A stretch of DNA of 64,000 bases from a bacterium (GTDB taxonomy: Bacteria; Bdellovibrionota; UBA2428). This document shows, in pieces, positions 16,057 through 25,622 of this stretch (positions within the stretch are counted from its first letter, which is position 1; each line of letters starts with the position of its first letter). Position numbers and translations under genes: made by a program. Location: contig JAACVK010000032.1 of NCBI GenBank assembly GCA_009991595.1, positions 1 through 64,000 of the forward strand, given 5' to 3'. Under the pieces are notes generated by a model, which saw nothing but the letters and a program-made list of their open reading frames with translations, was not told where the DNA came from and did no database searches.

Positions 16057-18078
16057 ATGAAAATTGCTTTCGTTCATAACCTTCAAAGATCTAAAGATGA
16101 GGCTGAAGCCGAATTTGACACGCCTGAGGTGGTTGAAGCCATTTCCCAGGGGATTCAAGCTTGTGGGCACACGGTAGACTTGGTCGACATGACTCGTGAT
16201 GGTGCGTGGATCGATCGTCTTTTGAATCTAAAACCAGATCTTATTTTTAATACGGCAGAAGGCTTCACCGGAGTAGGGCGAGAAAGCTATGCACCCTTGG
16301 TTTTTGAGCAGCTTGGACTTCCCTTTGTCGGAAGCGGCTCCTATTCTTGCTTTCTGACTTTGGATAAATATTTAACCAAGCAAGTTGTTTTGAAGCACGG
16401 CGTAATGGTTCCTGCTGGAGTTTTTGTGTCTCGCATAGAAGAGCTTTCGAATCTAGAGTCCGATTTAGAATTTCCAGTTTTTGTGAAACCCAACTTTGAA
16501 GGATCTAGTAAAGGAATTTCTAAGGAGTCAAAGTGCAACGATAAAGAAGAACTCCATAGAGTAGTCGAATCTCTGCTTAGTCGTTTCCCCGAAGGCCTCT
16601 TGGTGGAGAGTTATATAGAAGGTAAGGATATTACGGTTCCTTTCGTTGCAGGAATTGGCAAAGAAGGGGTGTTGAGCCCTGTTGAATACGTTGGGCCCGC
16701 TAGTCCAGATGGTTGGATTTACGATTACGAGCTTAAAAACTCTCAAGATGATTTGGTAGGAGTTCGGTGTCCAGCTGAGATTACTCAAAAGCAAGCCGAT
16801 CAAGTGACCCGATCTATGGCAAAGGCCGTGCGCGCTTTGGGGGTGGTCGACATGGGACGTGCCGATTTTAGAGTAACTCCTAATGGGGATGTGTATTTCA
16901 TTGAGTTGAATGCACTTCCTAGCTTACAGCCAGGAGCTGGGTTGTTTGAGGCTTCTTCTAGGCATGGGCTTAATTATTCGCAAACCTTGGGGCAGATTAT
17001 TACGGCAGCGGGTTCCAGGTTGGATTTAAAAACCAGGAAATTACCTTTGCGACATTCGCATAAGAGAAAGCCGAATGTCGCTTTGGTTTACAATATGAAG
17101 CGAAAGACTCATCATGATGAGGACTACGAAGCAGAGGCTGAGTTTGATTCACCTACAACAATTAAGGCGCTACTTTCGGCCCTACAAACAACAGGCTTTC
17201 CTGTTTTTGGAATTGAAGCAAAAAGAGATCTTGCTCAGAGGTTGGTCGAAGATGAAATCGATATTGTTTTTAATATTGCAGAAGGTGGCGGAGGACGTAG
17301 CCGCGAGGCTCAAGTCCCCGCGCTTTGTGATTTGATGGGGGTAGAGCATACCGGAAGTGATGCAACTTGTTTGGCTTTGACCTTGGATAAGGCCGTGACT
17401 TGTCGTCTGGTTGAAGCTGAAGGAATTTTAACTCCTAAAAGTGCTGTGGTTGATGGAAAGAAAATTCCTAAGATTCAGGGGATGAGTTTTCCTATCATAG
17501 TAAAGCCTAACTATGAGGGCACCTCTAAGGGTATTTATTCTAGCTCTGTTGTTAACAATCAGGCTGAATTAGAGGCCGCCTTTTTAAAGCTTCAAAAAGA
17601 TTATTCAGGGCAGGTCTTGATTCAGGAATACATTCAAGGACGTGAGATGACAGTCGGAGTTTTGGGGGGAGATCGTCCCAAGGTGCTAAGACCTCTGGAG
17701 ATTGTCTTTAAGGAATCCGCTGGAGAAATGCCAGTGTATACTTTTGAATATAAGCAATTAGATGAACAGCTAGACAATGAGTATTTGAAAATGGAATGTC
17801 CAGCTAAGATTTCCCAGGATGAGTGGAAAAAGATTAGGAAATTTTCTTTAAAGTGCTTTCGCGTTTTAGGTTGCCGAGATTTTGCTCGCATTGATTTTAG
17901 GATGAATGATAAAGGGGTCTACTTTATTGAAGTGAATCCACTGCCAGGTCTTTCTCCTGGGTTTAGTGATTTAACCATTATGGCTGAGAAGCAGGGGATT
18001 GAGTATCCAAAGTTGATTCAATCTATTTTAAGACCAGCCATCAGACGCTGGAGAAAGAGAGTTTCTCTATATGGCTAA
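16057..18078 (+). CDS. Tandem D-Ala-D-Ala-ligase-like ATP-grasp protein (two complete modules)
   Basis: The 673-residue protein is an internal duplication. Module 1 (residues 1-330) and module 2 (about 340-673) each start with an MKIAFVHN/VALVYNMK strand, continue with EAEAEFDTP/DSPTT and FNTAEGF/FNIAEGG, then the ATP-grasp lysine motif VKPNFEGSSKGIS or VKPNYEGTSKGIY, and end with the metal-binding RADF...ELNALPSL or RIDF...EVNPLPGL. Both active sites therefore look complete. Family members join amino acids to a second amine using ATP. Two modules in one chain suggest two successive ligations. It overlaps the P1 peptidase gene by eight bases. Its substrates are unknown, and a peptidoglycan role is not supported by context. 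Confidence 0.9.
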   Translation: MKIAFVHNLQRSKDEAEAEFDTPEVVEAISQGIQACGHTVDLVDMTRDGAWIDRLLNLKPDLIFNTAEGFTGVGRESYAPLVFEQLGLPFVGSGSYSCFLTLDKYLTKQVVLKHGVMVPAGVFVSRIEELSNLESDLEFPVFVKPNFEGSSKGISKESKCNDKEELHRVVESLLSRFPEGLLVESYIEGKDITVPFVAGIGKEGVLSPVEYVGPASPDGWIYDYELKNSQDDLVGVRCPAEITQKQADQVTRSMAKAVRALGVVDMGRADFRVTPNGDVYFIELNALPSLQPGAGLFEASSRHGLNYSQTLGQIITAAGSRLDLKTRKLPLRHSHKRKPNVALVYNMKRKTHHDEDYEAEAEFDSPTTIKALLSALQTTGFPVFGIEAKRDLAQRLVEDEIDIVFNIAEGGGGRSREAQVPALCDLMGVEHTGSDATCLALTLDKAVTCRLVEAEGILTPKSAVVDGKKIPKIQGMSFPIIVKPNYEGTSKGIYSSSVVNNQAELEAAFLKLQKDYSGQVLIQEYIQGREMTVGVLGGDRPKVLRPLEIVFKESAGEMPVYTFEYKQLDEQLDNEYLKMECPAKISQDEWKKIRKFSLKCFRVLGCRDFARIDFRMNDKGVYFIEVNPLPGLSPGFSDLTIMAEKQGIEYPKLIQSILRPAIRRWRKRVSLYG

Positions 18079-19204
18079 AAAATTACGCGAGGTTTTTTTA
18101 GAGCGCTCGCTTAAACGTAAAAGATTGCGGGATTTAGGTATTAAGGTTGGTCGATTACCCACAGGGAAAACCAATTCAATCGTAGATGTTCCGGGTGTAA
18201 AAGTTGGACATGCAACATTGATTGATGGAACTGGAAAAAGAAAGCCCGGCACGGGTCCTATCCGAACAGGGGTCACTGTGATTTCTCCAAATGACGACAT
18301 CTACCATAAGAAGTTGATGGCTGGAGGTTTCATCCTTAATGGAGCCGGTGAAATGACAGGGATGATTCAATTGAATGAATGGGGTTTGATTGAAACTCCG
18401 ATCGCTTTAACTAATACAATGAGTGTCGGGCAGGTTGGTTCGGCCTTGTCTCAATGGATGGTAGATCAATATAAAGATATTCACTCAGGTCGTCAGGTTG
18501 TTATTCCTGTCGTTGGAGAGTGTGATGATAGCTTTTTGAATGATTCGGGTGGATTGCATGTAAAAGCCCACCATGTTCGTGAGGCTGTGGGGAATTTAAG
18601 CTCAGAGCCGCCGGCTGAAGGTGCCGTAGGTGCTGGCACGGGGATGATTTGCTGTGATTTTAAAGCAGGGATTGGAAGCTCTTCTCGTGTTGTAAAAATT
18701 GGTTCGAAGTCTTTTAACTTAGGTTGTTTGGTTTTAAGTAATTTTGGTGACATGGATGAATTGCGTCTGGATGGAGTTCCAATCGGCAAGGCGTTAAAAA
18801 AAGAGTTTAGTTATATGAAAACTCGCAGAGAAAACTATGGCTCAATCATTACGGTTTTAGCAACAGATTTACCCTTGGGACCGTTGCAGCTTCAACGTTT
18901 ATGCAAGAGGGCGGCGCTTGGTATTGGGCGAGTAGGTTCGCATGCGGCTCATGGCAGCGGTGAAATTATTTTGGGCTTTTCTACGGCGAACGTGATTCCA
19001 AGGGACGAGCCCTTTTATAAACTTCAAATGACTAACGATTCGCATATAAACGTGGCCTACGAGGCAGCTATTGAAGTGGTTGAAGAAGCTATTTGGAATT
19101 CTTTGTGTATGGCAGTTGAAATGGAGGGGGTGGAAGGTAATGTGGCCCCATCGATTCCTCTAGAGCGTGTGTCCGAGGTTTATAACAAGCAAAGAGTATA
19201 CTGA
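18071..19204 (+). CDS. P1 family peptidase (DmpA/BapA-type aminopeptidase)
   Basis: The 377-residue protein has the family N-terminus NSIVDVPGVKVGH (near residue 35), GVTVI, NGAGEMTG, and the AVGAGTGM then FKAGIGSSSR stretch (185-206). These enzymes are Ntn-type hydrolases that cut themselves before the catalytic serine; here LSNFGD puts Ser223 at the expected place. Known members remove N-terminal L-, D- or beta-amino acids from short peptides. There is no signal peptide, so it is cytoplasmic. Overlap with the ATP-grasp gene implies coupled translation and a shared pathway, with one enzyme making and the other trimming an unusual peptide (inference). Confidence 0.9.
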   Translation: MAKKLREVFLERSLKRKRLRDLGIKVGRLPTGKTNSIVDVPGVKVGHATLIDGTGKRKPGTGPIRTGVTVISPNDDIYHKKLMAGGFILNGAGEMTGMIQLNEWGLIETPIALTNTMSVGQVGSALSQWMVDQYKDIHSGRQVVIPVVGECDDSFLNDSGGLHVKAHHVREAVGNLSSEPPAEGAVGAGTGMICCDFKAGIGSSSRVVKIGSKSFNLGCLVLSNFGDMDELRLDGVPIGKALKKEFSYMKTRRENYGSIITVLATDLPLGPLQLQRLCKRAALGIGRVGSHAAHGSGEIILGFSTANVIPRDEPFYKLQMTNDSHINVAYEAAIEVVEEAIWNSLCMAVEMEGVEGNVAPSIPLERVSEVYNKQRVY

Positions 19205-19283
19205 CAGTTTCTTGGCAGCTGCGTTGAGTCTTAGGCTTTGCTTTTAGACTTGTGTCGCGAGCTCTTTGTTCCGAATAGTTTTT

Positions 19284-20570
19284 ATGTGGGCAACCTTAAA
19301 GGAACGGGTTCGGGATCTATCTGAACGAATAGTTCTTGCTCAACGTCCAATTCGTATACTCAATGCGATTAAAACCCCAGAGAGAGCTATAAAAGAATTT
19401 AAAGCCTCTAATTATAAAGATATTCCTAAGCTGGGAAAGAGTGACTACGACAAGGCTATCTTGGGTTTCGACACCCTTGAAAAGAAGAAAGAACTAAGTG
19501 ATCTTGATTCAGATATTTCGACCCAGATTGGGAAAGCTCATCCTGAGTTAGCTCGATTGTTGTCCGCGACCGTTCGACAGTATTCTCAAGTTGTAGATCT
19601 GTTGGAGTCTCGCGGAAGTCCAGACTTCTATGCCTTTAGTAAAAAGCTTTATGGTTCTTCAAGCGATCCAATCCGCTCAGACAAGAATACAGTCTTTGAG
19701 ATGGCAAAACTACTCTATAGGATTTTGTCTGGGATAAAAAATACAATTCCCGTCCCAAACTCGGCTAAAACTCTTAGTGCGCAACAAGCCGTGGACGATT
19801 TGTCGGCAAGGTTTTTGAGATATTTTGGCGAAGCTATTCCTGCCATACTTTCCGATGGTGTTGTCGCAGATGCAGCGGCCGGAGGCGATGTTGTAAAAAT
19901 TAGGAGTGATCGGTTTTTTTCCCCGCGTGATTTAGATTTTCTAGAGGTTCATGAAGGCTGGGTTCATGTTGGAACCTCCTTAGGGGGTAGGGCTCAACCT
20001 GTCGCAAAATGGCTGTCGGTAGGGCCTCCTCGATGCACTTCCACTCAAGAAGGGTTGGCCGTCTTGATGGAGATCTTCACTTTTAGAAGTTCGGTTACTC
20101 GCGCCCAGAAGATCAATGATCGAATCATTGCTATTGCAAAGGCCGAAGAGGGCGCCAATTTAATAGAGGTCTTTGAATACTTTCGAACAGAGGGCTATGC
20201 AGAAGAGGAGTGTTTGACCAATTCGATGAGGGTGTTTCGTGGGACCAATCTAAGAGATGGCGCCTTTACTAAAGATTTGAGCTACTGCAGAGGATTTGTT
20301 GAGAACTATAATTTTCTTAGAGCGGCGATTAGGGCCAACAAGCCTTTTTTGATTCCATTCTTATTTGCAGGCAAGTTACATGTTGAAGACATTCCTCTGC
20401 TTTATCAGTTGCATCAGCAGGGTATTGTGACTTTTCCAAAATTCTTACCACCGCAGTTTTCAGATATTAACGGTTTGGCTGTTTGGATGAGCTTTTCAAG
20501 CTTTTTTAACAAAGTCGATTTAAAATCGGTTCAATCCCATTATAATAGTTTATTCAGAAAGTATGTTTGA
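19284..20570 (+). CDS. DUF1704 metallopeptidase with QEGLA motif
   Basis: The protein has about 428 residues. The zinc motif HEGWVH (HExxxH) is followed about 30 residues later by TQEGLA, whose glutamate is the third ligand in this family (flavohemoglobin expression-modulating QEGLA proteins; eukaryotic relatives are tubulin tyrosine carboxypeptidases). A carboxypeptidase-like role on an amide is thus plausible. ATG 19284 is used; TTG 19266 is in frame and adds six residues. It follows the P1 peptidase gene by 79 bases and likely belongs to the same unit. Bacterial substrates are not established. Confidence 0.85.
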   Translation: MWATLKERVRDLSERIVLAQRPIRILNAIKTPERAIKEFKASNYKDIPKLGKSDYDKAILGFDTLEKKKELSDLDSDISTQIGKAHPELARLLSATVRQYSQVVDLLESRGSPDFYAFSKKLYGSSSDPIRSDKNTVFEMAKLLYRILSGIKNTIPVPNSAKTLSAQQAVDDLSARFLRYFGEAIPAILSDGVVADAAAGGDVVKIRSDRFFSPRDLDFLEVHEGWVHVGTSLGGRAQPVAKWLSVGPPRCTSTQEGLAVLMEIFTFRSSVTRAQKINDRIIAIAKAEEGANLIEVFEYFRTEGYAEEECLTNSMRVFRGTNLRDGAFTKDLSYCRGFVENYNFLRAAIRANKPFLIPFLFAGKLHVEDIPLLYQLHQQGIVTFPKFLPPQFSDINGLAVWMSFSSFFNKVDLKSVQSHYNSLFRKYV

Positions 20571-20572
20571 GC

Positions 20573-21187
20573 TTAGCCGTTTCCAAGGAGGCTTTGTTTG
20601 AAGCCTCGACTTGGTGGATTCTTTCCAATCCAGGTTAAAAGTAAGGCTTTGGCAAAAGCCTTGTTTTCTGATTTGTAGGTTTGATCGCTAAAGCGAATCA
20701 ACAAGTGGTCAGAGAATATTTCAATGATGAGTTGATCTCCACGTTTGAAGCCTCTGGTTTGTGCTAAGAGTGTGTGAAAATCTTCTTTTGCTTTCTCACA
20801 ATAGCTTTCACAGTTCTCGACGAAGCTTTCTTCCCAGGCTTGTCGAAACTCTTTTGGAGTTAAGTCCATAAGAAAGCGCATTTCGACAATCAAGAATTTA
20901 TCTTTGGTGAAAACTTGCTCAATGATCTCAGAAGCTTCTTTGGTTTCTTGGGTCAAATAAAGCGAGAGGTTGTAAACTTCAAAGATAAATCGTGAATGGG
21001 TTGACGAGCCGTTAAGAACGAGGCGGCTTCCTGCCAGGCTACGGTCTTTGAGTTTAACTTCACCTCCTAGTGTGGGGCGAGCTTCTAGCAGATCAAAATG
21101 AGTGACAGCGAAGTAAGAAAAGATCGCGCCAGTAACGAGAAGTGTTGCTGCTAAAAATAGAGTGCTTTTTCGCTGCTTTTGCGTCAT
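20573..21187 (-). CDS. Membrane-anchored chalcone-isomerase-like protein
   Basis: An N-terminal hydrophobic helix (about residues 9-28) is followed by a domain with RLVLNGSSTHSRFIFEVYN, LSLYLTQ, a central KEFRQAWEESF helix and the C-terminal GKNPPSRGFKQSLLG. This order (G-R/F-VY-LYL, then a terminal lysine-LLG) matches the bacterial chalcone isomerase-like family, which binds fatty-acid-like ligands and lacks known catalysis. ATG 21187 is preferred over TTG 21196. It is convergent with the DUF1704 gene, two bases away. Confidence 0.75.
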   Translation of the reverse strand: MTQKQRKSTLFLAATLLVTGAIFSYFAVTHFDLLEARPTLGGEVKLKDRSLAGSRLVLNGSSTHSRFIFEVYNLSLYLTQETKEASEIIEQVFTKDKFLIVEMRFLMDLTPKEFRQAWEESFVENCESYCEKAKEDFHTLLAQTRGFKRGDQLIIEIFSDHLLIRFSDQTYKSENKAFAKALLLTWIGKNPPSRGFKQSLLGNG

Positions 21188-21274
21188 TGAGGACAAGTAT
21201 ATCAGAAGGACTCTTAAAGATGGAGGTAGGGAAATGACGCTTAGGTCACCTCCCTATCTCCTTGTTTTCTTACG

Positions 21275-22029: not shown

Positions 22030-22401
22030 GTGGAAAATTATACAAACGTACAAAAACTGATTCTCAGTTTATCGCAAGAAGATCAAGAAAAACTTCTTCA
22101 GATAATAGAGAAGTTGGATTGGAGTGGCGCTCGTCTTCGAGAGGAGCCTGTTTCGTTTGTGATGGCTGAGAAGTCTTTTTCCGTTAAACTAGGGCCATTA
22201 GAGGAAAAGCTACTAGAGCTTTTGAAAACAAAAAGTTGCTCAAAATGGGAGTTGGTTTCTTTACTTTATCCAGATGAGGGAAATAGTCTCTTAGCCGAAA
22301 ACCGCTTTAAAAATCTATTGGCCAGAGTGCGAAAAAAGTGTCCAGGGGTGGTTGTTTGTCAGTCAGGTTTGTATCAGCTGACTTTTTCAAAGAAGGCTTA
22401 A
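22030..22401 (+). CDS. Winged-helix DNA-binding regulator (OmpR-type output domain)
   Basis: The 123-residue protein begins at GTG 22030. Residues 1-45 are helical and unrecognised. Residues 50-120 resemble a transcriptional-regulator winged helix: GPLEEKLLELL, then SKWELVSLLYPDEGNSLLAENRFKNLLARVRKK, and a final hairpin VVCQSGLYQL. There is no receiver domain. Its stop is two bases before the TTG start of the kinase-like gene, so both are probably coexpressed. Confidence 0.75.
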   Translation: MENYTNVQKLILSLSQEDQEKLLQIIEKLDWSGARLREEPVSFVMAEKSFSVKLGPLEEKLLELLKTKSCSKWELVSLLYPDEGNSLLAENRFKNLLARVRKKCPGVVVCQSGLYQLTFSKKA

Positions 22402-22403
22402 CC

Positions 22404-23510
22404 TTGCGAGAGGGCTCGATTCGACAGATTGGGGCATCGGGTTTAAGTGTTGTCCTTGTGGGAAATCTATTGTTAAGCAGTAAAATCGCCGATGAGCGGA
22501 AGAATAACCCCGCTCTTTTTTATGTGGACCCAGCCAACCCGCAAGAGATTTTAAACTATCTGATTTCTATAGGTCGACTGTCGAAGCAAGCCGACAAACT
22601 CAAACTTTCAAAGGCTGGAGACGGCAATATGAATCTCACTTTGAGAGTTGAGGCAGAGGGACAGAGTTTTATTCTCAAGCAAGCAAGGCCTTGGGTTGAA
22701 AAATATCCGCAAATTGCAGCTCCGGCATCGCGGCTGGAGGTGGAATTTGCTTTTTATCAAAGTTGCTCAATGGATGGGGTTTTGCAAAAGCACACTCCAG
22801 GTGTTTTGTTCTTTGATCCAGAAAACAGAATTGAACTCCTTGAAGATCTTGGTGAGGGAGAGGATTTGGGAGCGCTTTATCGAGGAGGGGTTCTATCTTC
22901 TGATGAGCTTTCACAGTTGGCTGAAATTCTTAGCCATATACATTCTCTGAAACTTTCTTCTCAACAGAGAAAAGTGTTTCAAAACCAAAGAATGAAAGAT
23001 TTGAATCATTTTCATATTTTCGTTTTTCCTTTCGATCTAGGCAATGGCTTCAATTTGGATGAGATTACATTGGGCTTGAGTGATGATTTACTCAGATTCA
23101 CAAGTCTTCCCGCTCGGATGGAGAAGATCTCTAGGCTAGCAGATTTGTATCTTGAGTCGGGAGATAGTTTGTTACACGGAGACTTTTACCCAGGAAGTTT
23201 TTTAAAAAGAGAGCGAGTCTTTTTGATCGACCCCGAATTTGCTCATGTTGGAATGCGGGAGTTCGATCTTGGTGTATTCATTGCCCATTTGCATTTAAGC
23301 TCTCAGAAGGACGGATTGATTGAAGACTTCTTGAACGCCTATCGAAACTCCGGAGGAGATTCTTTTGATCGCCCATTGCTTGAGGCGATGGCGGGAATAG
23401 AGATTTCGAGAAGGTTGTTGGGGGTCGCTCAGTTACCCATTCATTTGAATAGAGAAGACAAAAGAAAATTGTTATTAAAATCGAGTTCTTATATAGATGC
23501 TTGGAGCTAA
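22404..23510 (+). CDS. Methylthioribose-kinase-like phosphotransferase
   Basis: The kinase fold shows AGDGNMNLTLRV (nucleotide loop), FILKQARPWVEKYP, then the catalytic HGDFYPGS and the metal motif IDPEFAHVG. The serine in place of the usual asparagine of the HxDxxxxN motif, and DPEFA, are both found in methylthioribose kinase (MtnK), which phosphorylates MTR in methionine salvage. No other salvage gene is near, so the substrate may differ. TTG 22404 is chosen: GAAGG lies seven bases upstream and the start is coupled to the preceding stop. GTG 22524 would begin closer to the family's usual N-terminus. Confidence 0.75.
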   Translation: MREGSIRQIGASGLSVVLVGNLLLSSKIADERKNNPALFYVDPANPQEILNYLISIGRLSKQADKLKLSKAGDGNMNLTLRVEAEGQSFILKQARPWVEKYPQIAAPASRLEVEFAFYQSCSMDGVLQKHTPGVLFFDPENRIELLEDLGEGEDLGALYRGGVLSSDELSQLAEILSHIHSLKLSSQQRKVFQNQRMKDLNHFHIFVFPFDLGNGFNLDEITLGLSDDLLRFTSLPARMEKISRLADLYLESGDSLLHGDFYPGSFLKRERVFLIDPEFAHVGMREFDLGVFIAHLHLSSQKDGLIEDFLNAYRNSGGDSFDRPLLEAMAGIEISRRLLGVAQLPIHLNREDKRKLLLKSSSYIDAWS

Positions 23511-23594
23511 CTTTCTTGAAAATGTCAGAACTTTTAATTGGCTTCGGTGGAAGCGGTCTATATAACCACTTTTTAAACTAAAAGGAGTCTTTTC

Positions 23595-25622
23595 ATGTGT
23601 GGCATTTGGGGTCGAAGTTATTCCAGGTCGGAATCAAGTTTAGAGCAAGGTTCCGATATGGTGCGGGCAGTTCGGTCGTTGGCGCATCGAGGGCCTGATG
23701 ATTATGGCTACTTTAATAATGAGCGTGTTGCCTTGGTTCACACCCGACTTAGCATTATTGATTTAACGGTCGAAGGTCGTCAGCCTCTTTTGAGCCATAA
23801 CGGTCGTTATTTGGGAATCTTTAATGGTGAGCTTTATGACTATGATCAACACCGCCACAAGCTTCAAAGTGCGGGTGTTCACTTTAAGAGTCATTCAGAT
23901 AGCGAAGTCTTTTTAAACTTATTCACAACTCAAGGGATTAAAGCCTTTGAGCATCTGTCCGGTGAGTTTGCCTTTATCATCTATGACTTTGAAGAAGCTA
24001 AGCTTTATTTCGGTCGAGATATCCATGGTGTGAAACCCCTGTTTATGAAGTTTGTTGATGGCGAAATCGAGGTGGCTTCAGAGGGAAAAGCTCTTATTAG
24101 TTCTGTTCAACCCGAGTTAGACTCAACCTACATTCAGCAATTTTTTTCGGGATTAATTGTGCCGCCAAGAACAGCCATCAAGCATGTGGAGCATGTGTTA
24201 CCGGGTCGTTTGTATTGTTTTGATTTGAACAACAAAAAGCTTGAGTGGAAGAATTATGACTTTTTATTTTCTAAGACCAATAAAAGATCTCTAAAAAATG
24301 CATCGGCCGAAGAGCTTGTCTACGAGGAATTAAATGCCTCGGTTCGTAGGAGGTTGAAGGCAGATGTGCCGGTTGGAGCCTATTTGAGCGGTGGGCTGGA
24401 TAGTTCTTTGGTTGCGGCTTTGATGATGGAAAATGGTGCGAATCCTAAAACCTTTACCGTGGGTTTTGAAGATCCAAAATTTGATGAAACCACTGTGGCT
24501 GTAGACACTGCAAAGCACTTGGGCCTTTCTCACCATGTTGTTTATTTGAATCAAGAAAATTACCTTCCTGCTCTCAAACGTTCTATTTTAGCTTTTGAGA
24601 ATCCAATTTTTAATACGCATGGAGCAGCGAAGAACCTTTTATCGGAATTGGCTGCTTCTCATGTGAAAGTCGTGTTGTCGGGCGAGGGCGCAGATGAGTG
24701 GTTTGGTGGTTACCCTTATTTGAGAATCCAAAAAATTTTAGAGTTCAATAAAAGGCATGAGAACCTAGCTCTTCCTAATTTAGATCTTTTTCACCAAAAA
24801 GAAGGTGATACCGCTCGAGGGCATTTGAATGGAGAAAGCGAATTTTACTCCTCTCTTGTTTTGAAGCATTTTGGTGGTCGTTATCCTGCTCTTCTAAGGC
24901 GTTTGGTGAACCCTCGAAATTTGCGTTATTTGATAGCTGAAAAACCTGACAAAGTGATTGATGATGCTTTATCCGATTTGAAAAAATATATGATCGAAGA
25001 TATGCCTTCGTCTGCCGAAGGTGTTTCGGAATTTGATTCAGACCTTTGGCTTGGATTGAGAACAGATTTATTGCATTACGTTTTGAGTAATGTGGGAGAT
25101 CGCCAAGAAATGTCACATTCTTTAGAGGGGCGAACACCCTTCTTGGATCAACGCTTGGTCAAGCTGGCGAGAACATTGTCGCCAGGGACGCTGGTTCGAG
25201 GTTTGTGTGAGAAATATGTATTGAAGCAGATCGCTAAAAAAAGGTTGCCGGAAGCTATTTCTAAAAAGAAGAAGTTTGCTTTTTTTGCACCGTCTGAAAT
25301 TCTTTTCTCGAAACAGAACCAGGATGAGTTAGTTTCTTACATGCAAATTGCTAAAGCTACCTTGGACTTCATGCCATGGAAAAAAATCGACATGATTTTA
25401 GCAGCAGATCCTGATCCAGGTCGTAGGCAAAATGTGATGACCGCGTTTTTCTCAATGGGCGTTTTGACGACTCATCTTGCGGACCCTCATTTGCATAAGC
25501 CTCGAGGATACAAGTTGCCCGTGAAGCCGAATGATTTACTGGGGCACGGTTTCTCTTATCCCGCTGTGCCGCGAGTGGGGACCTTTAGTGAATCGCGGTT
25601 GGAATTATCCCCAGGCCGGTAA
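23595..25622 (+). CDS. asnB: Asparagine synthase, glutamine-hydrolysing
   Basis: The 675-residue enzyme has the Ntn glutaminase domain first, with nucleophile Cys2 (MCGIWG), RLSIIDL, FNGELYD and the YFGRDIHGVKP turn. The synthetase domain (from about 240) has the PP-loop YLSGGLDSSL and SGEGADEWFGGY. It makes asparagine from aspartate, ATP and glutamine. The ribosome site AAAGGAG precedes ATG 23595. The C-terminus extends about 50 residues beyond the core. The 3' end overlaps the convergent marC gene by 38 bases. Confidence 0.93.
   Translation: MCGIWGRSYSRSESSLEQGSDMVRAVRSLAHRGPDDYGYFNNERVALVHTRLSIIDLTVEGRQPLLSHNGRYLGIFNGELYDYDQHRHKLQSAGVHFKSHSDSEVFLNLFTTQGIKAFEHLSGEFAFIIYDFEEAKLYFGRDIHGVKPLFMKFVDGEIEVASEGKALISSVQPELDSTYIQQFFSGLIVPPRTAIKHVEHVLPGRLYCFDLNNKKLEWKNYDFLFSKTNKRSLKNASAEELVYEELNASVRRRLKADVPVGAYLSGGLDSSLVAALMMENGANPKTFTVGFEDPKFDETTVAVDTAKHLGLSHHVVYLNQENYLPALKRSILAFENPIFNTHGAAKNLLSELAASHVKVVLSGEGADEWFGGYPYLRIQKILEFNKRHENLALPNLDLFHQKEGDTARGHLNGESEFYSSLVLKHFGGRYPALLRRLVNPRNLRYLIAEKPDKVIDDALSDLKKYMIEDMPSSAEGVSEFDSDLWLGLRTDLLHYVLSNVGDRQEMSHSLEGRTPFLDQRLVKLARTLSPGTLVRGLCEKYVLKQIAKKRLPEAISKKKKFAFFAPSEILFSKQNQDELVSYMQIAKATLDFMPWKKIDMILAADPDPGRRQNVMTAFFSMGVLTTHLADPHLHKPRGYKLPVKPNDLLGHGFSYPAVPRVGTFSESRLELSPGR

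Follow-up and report, generated by a model that had tools for sequence, protein, structure and literature searches.

The window, by which we mean the whole 64,000-nucleotide stretch analysed, corresponds to contig C3 in a MAG of 2.96 Mb that is 90.6% complete. Close homologues in genomes of Bdellovibrionota support its placement in that phylum. Three open reading frames lie in a row on its forward strand. The first (16057..18078, +; 673 aa) encodes a double ATP-grasp carboxylate-amine ligase of the MXAN_4097-like family. Two PF07478 stretches, scoring 234.7 bits together in a profile match, were found within this one open reading frame, which bears out the earlier note's description of a single chain with two D-Ala-D-Ala-ligase-like (Ddl-like) modules. 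Module 1 covers approximately residues 1-325 (16057..17031, +) and module 2 approximately residues 339-673 (17071..18075, +). The ligase stop codon (TAA, 18076-18078) overlaps the next start codon (ATG, 18071) by exactly the eight bases previously described (18071..18078, +). This second gene (18071..19204, +; 377 aa) encodes a P1 (S58, DmpA/BapA-type) N-terminal-nucleophile aminopeptidase that matches PF03576 (Peptidase_S58) with 370 bits and an E value far below chance.

The third gene (19266..20570, +; 434 aa) encodes a MATCAP/DUF1704 (QEGLA) zinc peptidase, as had been read from the sequence: it contains HEGWVH (residues 229-234; 19950-19967) and QEGLA (residues 261-265; 20046-20060), and it matches PF08014 with 382.5 bits against a Pfam cut-off of 27, again with an E value far below chance. 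Its likely start is the ATG at 19284, not the TTG at 19266, because alignments with relatives begin at the W of MWATLKE. The gap between the S58 gene and this gene is thus 61-79 bases, and no terminator-like site was found within it. On the opposite strand a gene for a chalcone-isomerase-like protein (20573-21196, -) has its 3' end 2 bases from the MATCAP stop codon. Further downstream (22030-25622) the window encodes a small protein to which no family was assigned; an APH protein of the methylthioribose-kinase-like kind, which overlaps it; and, 3 kb downstream of the three genes, an asparagine synthase that hydrolyses glutamine. Apart from tRNAs, no riboswitch or other RNA was found near the ligase-S58 pair, and PADLOC gave no match to a defence system.

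Each half of the ligase was aligned to E. coli DdlB, and conservation was scored across 99 homologues. The DdlB residues for ATP and Mg binding and phosphoryl transfer (K97, K144, K215, R255, D257, E270 and N272) are all present in both modules, where their equivalents (module 1/module 2) are K104/K445, K144/K483, K227/K566, R268/R611, D270/D613, E283/E625 and N285/N627; E184 of module 1 also belongs to the ATP/Mg residues. All seven are invariant in module 2, and in module 1 K104, K144, K227 and E283 are invariant, R268 is kept in 98 of the 99 homologues, D270 is D or E, and N285 is N or D. Retention of the catalytic residues in both modules, which the earlier note had proposed to check, is thereby confirmed, and the alignment supports the prediction that both ATP-grasp modules are catalytically complete.

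The residues of DdlB that choose D-alanine are H63, Y216 and S281-L282. H63 is replaced by E68/E409, invariant across the homologues. Y216 is replaced by N228/Q567 in the window ligase; among the homologues, module 1 has N, T or S here, and module 2 has Q or L. S281-L282 corresponds to A294-G295 in module 1 and, in the equivalent loop of module 2, to S637-D638, which is invariant. E19/E362 and D21/D364, also invariant across the 99 homologues, lie close to where Ddl has its Glu for binding the first amino group. Because the D-Ala-selecting residues are lost in both modules, and because the conserved pockets of the two modules differ from each other, the tandem enzyme is predicted to be a two-site amide ligase and not a Ddl.

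In a phylogenetic tree the two modules fall into separate clades, and the window sequences lie inside both. Module 1 has a support of 100/100, and module 2 forms one group in 90% of the bootstrap trees with a support of 77/58. The separation indicates one old duplication or fusion that predates the spread of the family. An AlphaFold model of the ligase (mean pLDDT 93) has two confident lobes joined by a disordered or flexible linker at 327-335, the mutual position of the lobes being uncertain (pTM 0.54), and in Foldseek searches the best matches are Ddl structures and CPSase, with each lobe matching Ddl structures. Two ligations in succession are possible, and so equally is a fused pseudo-dimer. 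Single modules also occur: in one genome (G321) module 2 alone stands before S58 (L229:6100-8773), some 500 bases downstream of a transposase-like gene, and this ligase has likely lost module 1. The plasmid relatives, of which three stretches were inspected, are single-module and have no S58 linkage.

The family already has a name. It appears as 'MXAN_4097-like amidoligase' in a study of lichen Nostoc, where a cell-wall role was assumed (PMC5987646), and no biochemical function for its members was found in the literature that could be searched. The window ligase is about 43-47% identical to myxobacterial members. We took MXAN_4097 of Myxococcus xanthus as an orthologue on the basis of tandem PF07478 and of a HemB-SglS-RDD-ligase order in related Myxococcaceae that matches MXAN_4100-4097. 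An insertion mutant of MXAN_4097 has no obvious defect in growth, shape or S-motility, and MXAN_5601 has been named the likely primary ddl of this organism (PMC9108774).

An accessory role in peptidoglycan metabolism, with the ligase making D-Ala-D-Ala or D-Ala-D-X and the S58 protein acting as a D-aminopeptidase that recycles D-Ala dipeptides, would agree with the assumption made in the Nostoc study and with Ddl being the nearest solved family of the ligase. The relatives of the S58 protein include enzymes deposited as D-aminopeptidases, and in the Bdellovibrionota group f3 a UppP gene follows the pair, with an Mpl-like ligase further on. A PF07478 search found no canonical Ddl in the window's own MAG; sister genomes, however, have a separate canonical Ddl that keeps the mapped active-site residues, so that the absence is probably a gap in an assembly of limited completeness. 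The replaced D-Ala pocket and the lack of an obvious growth or shape defect in the mutant of M. xanthus, which has its likely primary ddl elsewhere, also stand against this role, and we regard it as unlikely. The narrower proposal that the tandem ligase is itself the cell-wall Ddl was rejected on the changed pocket residues together with the separate Ddl genes.

The closest solved relative of the window S58 protein is PH0078 (2drh). The residue previously singled out as a plausible catalytic Ser223 (18737-18739) lies in the motif SNFG and occupies the nucleophile position in an alignment to P1 structures, and the protein also has the Ser-x-Glu motif (S296-x-E298) and E150. Of the 63 S58 proteins that partner a double ligase, 58 have Ser or Thr at this position and the other five have Asn or Ala (L087, L095, L118, L125 and L116, all from one myxobacterial-type group), so hydrolysis cannot be universal in the partners; those five are possibly inactive or changed enzymes. 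The sequence ECDD is invariant in 63/63 partners. DmpA/BapA and carnosine are treated in PMC9235088.

The linkage of the two genes was followed through 82 distinct ligase loci from Bdellovibrionota, Myxococcota, an Elusimicrobium and a Planctomycete, 78 of which have room downstream. A same-strand S58 gene lies directly 3' of the ligase at 50 of these 78 by a strict cut and at approximately 54 after correction for four loci (L136, L130, L103 and L112) that miss the cut solely because of overlong stop-to-stop ORFs. Four other loci have S58 2.5-5.2 kb downstream, and at L115 it is divergent. Eleven relatives have a ligase with 46-54% identity to that of the window, and in 10 of them S58 is next door. 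Unbiased clustering of neighbours recovered S58 at 62 loci, 61 of them on the same strand, and no other neighbour with an evident link in function that is conserved beyond one lineage. Candidates for a universal third partner were rejected, since HemB-SglS-RDD is a synteny of Myxococcota and f3 alone has the arginase-like, UppP and PotABCD genes. ABC ATPases recur at 26 loci and are of mixed kinds, PotA-like in f3 and drug-export-like in Myxococcota. NtrC-type regulators lie near several myxobacterial loci, in genomes that hold many of them.

The two genes also occur together where they are not adjacent. Across 369 Bdellovibrionota genomes the ligase was found in 38, S58 in 43 and both in 36 (statistics that ignore phylogeny), and these include genomes in which the two stand apart (G001, G078 and G177), even on different contigs; the ligase carriers in which S58 went undetected in this search are G176 and G342. 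The distance matrices of ligase and S58 are correlated with a Mantel r of 0.92 against a permutation maximum of 0.23. When 21 genomes with no adjacent S58 at the ligase locus were searched, 14 had S58 elsewhere and seven gave no detection; most of the ligase genomes in which S58 went undetected are incomplete MAGs. With both adjacency and co-occurrence holding across lineages, the ligase and S58 genes form a deep, conserved two-gene unit that is inherited together across at least four phyla and in many predatory and social bacteria. In G177 and G078 (L240:5202-7954 and L242:5336-8068), the gene directly after S58 encodes a divergent ATP-grasp protein with one module and the next a RimI-like GNAT, the double ligase being on another contig.

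The third gene does not share this history. The MATCAP protein itself appears intact, in that H229, E230, H234 and E262 are invariant in 12 sequences, and it matches human MATCAP (7z5g) both by profile (E 1.7e-4) and by Foldseek (E 3.5e-6); at 322.1 bits it misses the TIGR02421 QEGLA equivalog cut-off of 338.65. We know of no bacterial substrate of MATCAP. A MATCAP gene lies directly beside the pair at only two of the 82 loci and in differing orientations, namely in the window and, convergently, in G054, where it belongs to another subfamily and is about 30% identical to that of the window. Among relatives, the closest homologues of the window MATCAP (50-60% identity) have unrelated neighbours (fructose-bisphosphate aldolase, ribosomal proteins) in genomes that have no double ligase, and four f3 genomes carry the ligase-S58 pair and no MATCAP. 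A conserved three-gene unit is thus ruled out, and MATCAP is a neighbour, mostly a passer-by, outside the conserved unit.

The earlier note had joined all three enzymes in one pathway that makes, trims or recycles a nonstandard small peptide in the cytoplasm, and had named conservation of the three-gene order as its own measure. The co-inherited ligase-S58 pair retains its place in that scheme and MATCAP does not; with the three-gene order not conserved, the accompanying idea of processing at each end of the peptide is left without comparative support. A pathway in which one peptide is served by the ligase, by S58 at its amino end and by MATCAP at its carboxyl end would nonetheless fit the shared strand and short uninterrupted gap in the window. 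It would also fit the three loci of 82 (window, L034 and L094, the last at 5.4 kb) with MATCAP no more than 7 kb from the ligase, against 0.08-0.31 expected (Poisson 1e-4 to 4e-3). Ligase and MATCAP occur together in 7 of 59 relatives (carriers 12 and 16; p 0.011, phylogeny ignored), and in a wider set MATCAP is present in 7 of 25 genomes, mostly Myxococcota. Because three loci exceed chance there may be an occasional functional link, but given the rarity, differing orientations and divergence of the adjacent MATCAPs we hold the three-enzyme pathway to be improbable.

We favour, with a confidence a little above even, a reading of the ligase and S58 genes as a cytoplasmic two-gene make-and-break cassette, dispensable to the cell, whose product is a small peptide or amide that keeps its amino end free; MATCAP is in this reading an optional, lineage-specific addition. 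Ddl-type ligases leave the amino group of a substrate free and activate its carboxylate, and P1 aminopeptidases need a free amino end and cleave the first amide. Since the overlapping genes encode such a ligase and such an aminopeptidase, the simplest account has both enzymes working on one compound, although gene adjacency argues for a shared process and not necessarily for the same bond. The substrate of the tandem ATP-grasp enzyme would be an amino acid or short peptide whose amino group is free; the enzyme would convert its carboxylate to an acyl phosphate and couple it to an amine, using one or both of the two different active sites. The peptidase encoded by the S58 gene would recognise the free amino end of the product and remove or transfer the N-terminal residue, thereby turning over, trimming or proofreading the same bond that the ligase had made; we infer turnover as the direction, rather than maturation. 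The product would not be D-Ala-D-Ala for peptidoglycan. A cytoplasmic location agrees with the absence, as read from the sequence, of a signal-peptide-like start from both proteins, and the cassette is read as dispensable because the M. xanthus homologue is (PMC9108774).

It is very doubtful that the two enzymes instead run a protein-tagging cycle, in which the ligase would extend a protein at an end or side chain and the peptidase would take the added residues off again, in the manner of tubulin tyrosine ligase and MATCAP. The substrates of Ddl-type modules are small and free, known S58 members have a narrow pocket, and neither a conserved substrate-protein gene (neighbour clustering) nor a docking domain (ligase model) was found. 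ATP-grasp ligase/peptidase pairs of this sort do exist elsewhere (RimK; tubulin), and tagging, like small-peptide synthesis, has been discussed in connection with the linked presence of several ligases (PMC4431377).

For the make-and-break cassette, several hints touch on the substrate. Invariant acidic residues occupy Ddl substrate positions (E68/E409 and D638), and the S58 partners carry ECDD. The f3 loci (L036:1-15131 and others) share a conserved row of genes: Mpl-like, beta-lactamase-like, BamB-like, UppP, S58, double ligase, agmatinase-like and then divergent PotABCD-type. The agmatinase-like gene and the divergent polyamine transporter genes precede the pair. A single-module relative in Thioflavicoccus stands in a cluster of 2,3-diaminopropionate, diaminobutyrate and KamA genes (SbnA, a diaminobutyrate transaminase, ornithine cyclodeaminase and KamA), and in G177 and G078 S58 stands before a different ATP-grasp enzyme and a GNAT. 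The acidic residues and neighbouring genes weakly suggest basic or beta-amino substrates. It is a long shot that the pair builds and degrades a new conjugate, cytoplasmic and used by predatory and social bacteria, that contains a basic amino acid (a diamino acid, a beta-amino acid such as beta-lysine, or a polyamine amide).

That a catalytically intact ligase and an aminopeptidase have been kept side by side in at least four phyla suggests that Bdellovibrionota and Myxococcota contain a small peptide or amide not yet described. This can be tested, as M. xanthus is a genetic model with an existing insertion mutant of the homologue. The routine annotation 'D-alanine-D-alanine ligase' is corrected for the MXAN_4097-like family.

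Compared with known systems, the window ligase has in each module the fold of DdlB, DdlA and VanA and all of their ATP/Mg residues, and differs in having two modules per chain, in its replaced D-Ala-selecting residues and in the coexistence of a true Ddl in relatives. With the MXAN_4097-like ligases it has the tandem PF07478 protein in common; the HemB-SglS-RDD synteny of the MXAN_4097 locus is absent from the window, and S58 overlaps the ligase, whereas in MXAN_4097-type loci it follows after a gap. The window MATCAP shares with human MATCAP (7z5g) and the TIGR02421 QEGLA proteins the HExxxH and (Q/E)EGLA motifs and the fold (TMt about 0.6), but is only about 16% identical to the human protein and falls below the TIGR02421 cut-off. 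The N-acetylglutaminylglutamine amide trio, which serves here as a lead, consists of an ATP-grasp/GNAT protein, an amidotransferase and an M42 peptidase, and likewise keeps a ligase and a peptidase for one small peptide. The trio differs from the ligase-S58 pair in its ligase family, its peptidase and its need for an amidotransferase; the cut-off for the trio is 570, and the window's AsnB (at 23595) reaches only 285. The P1 peptidases PH0078, DmpA and BapA, and more distantly ThnT, have PF03576, the nucleophile, the Ser-x-Glu motif and the amine-site Glu in common with the window S58. The partner S58 proteins carry ECDD where DmpA has ETYD, BapA ETLD and PH0078 ECND, and, unlike the known P1 peptidases, they are genetically tied to a ligase.
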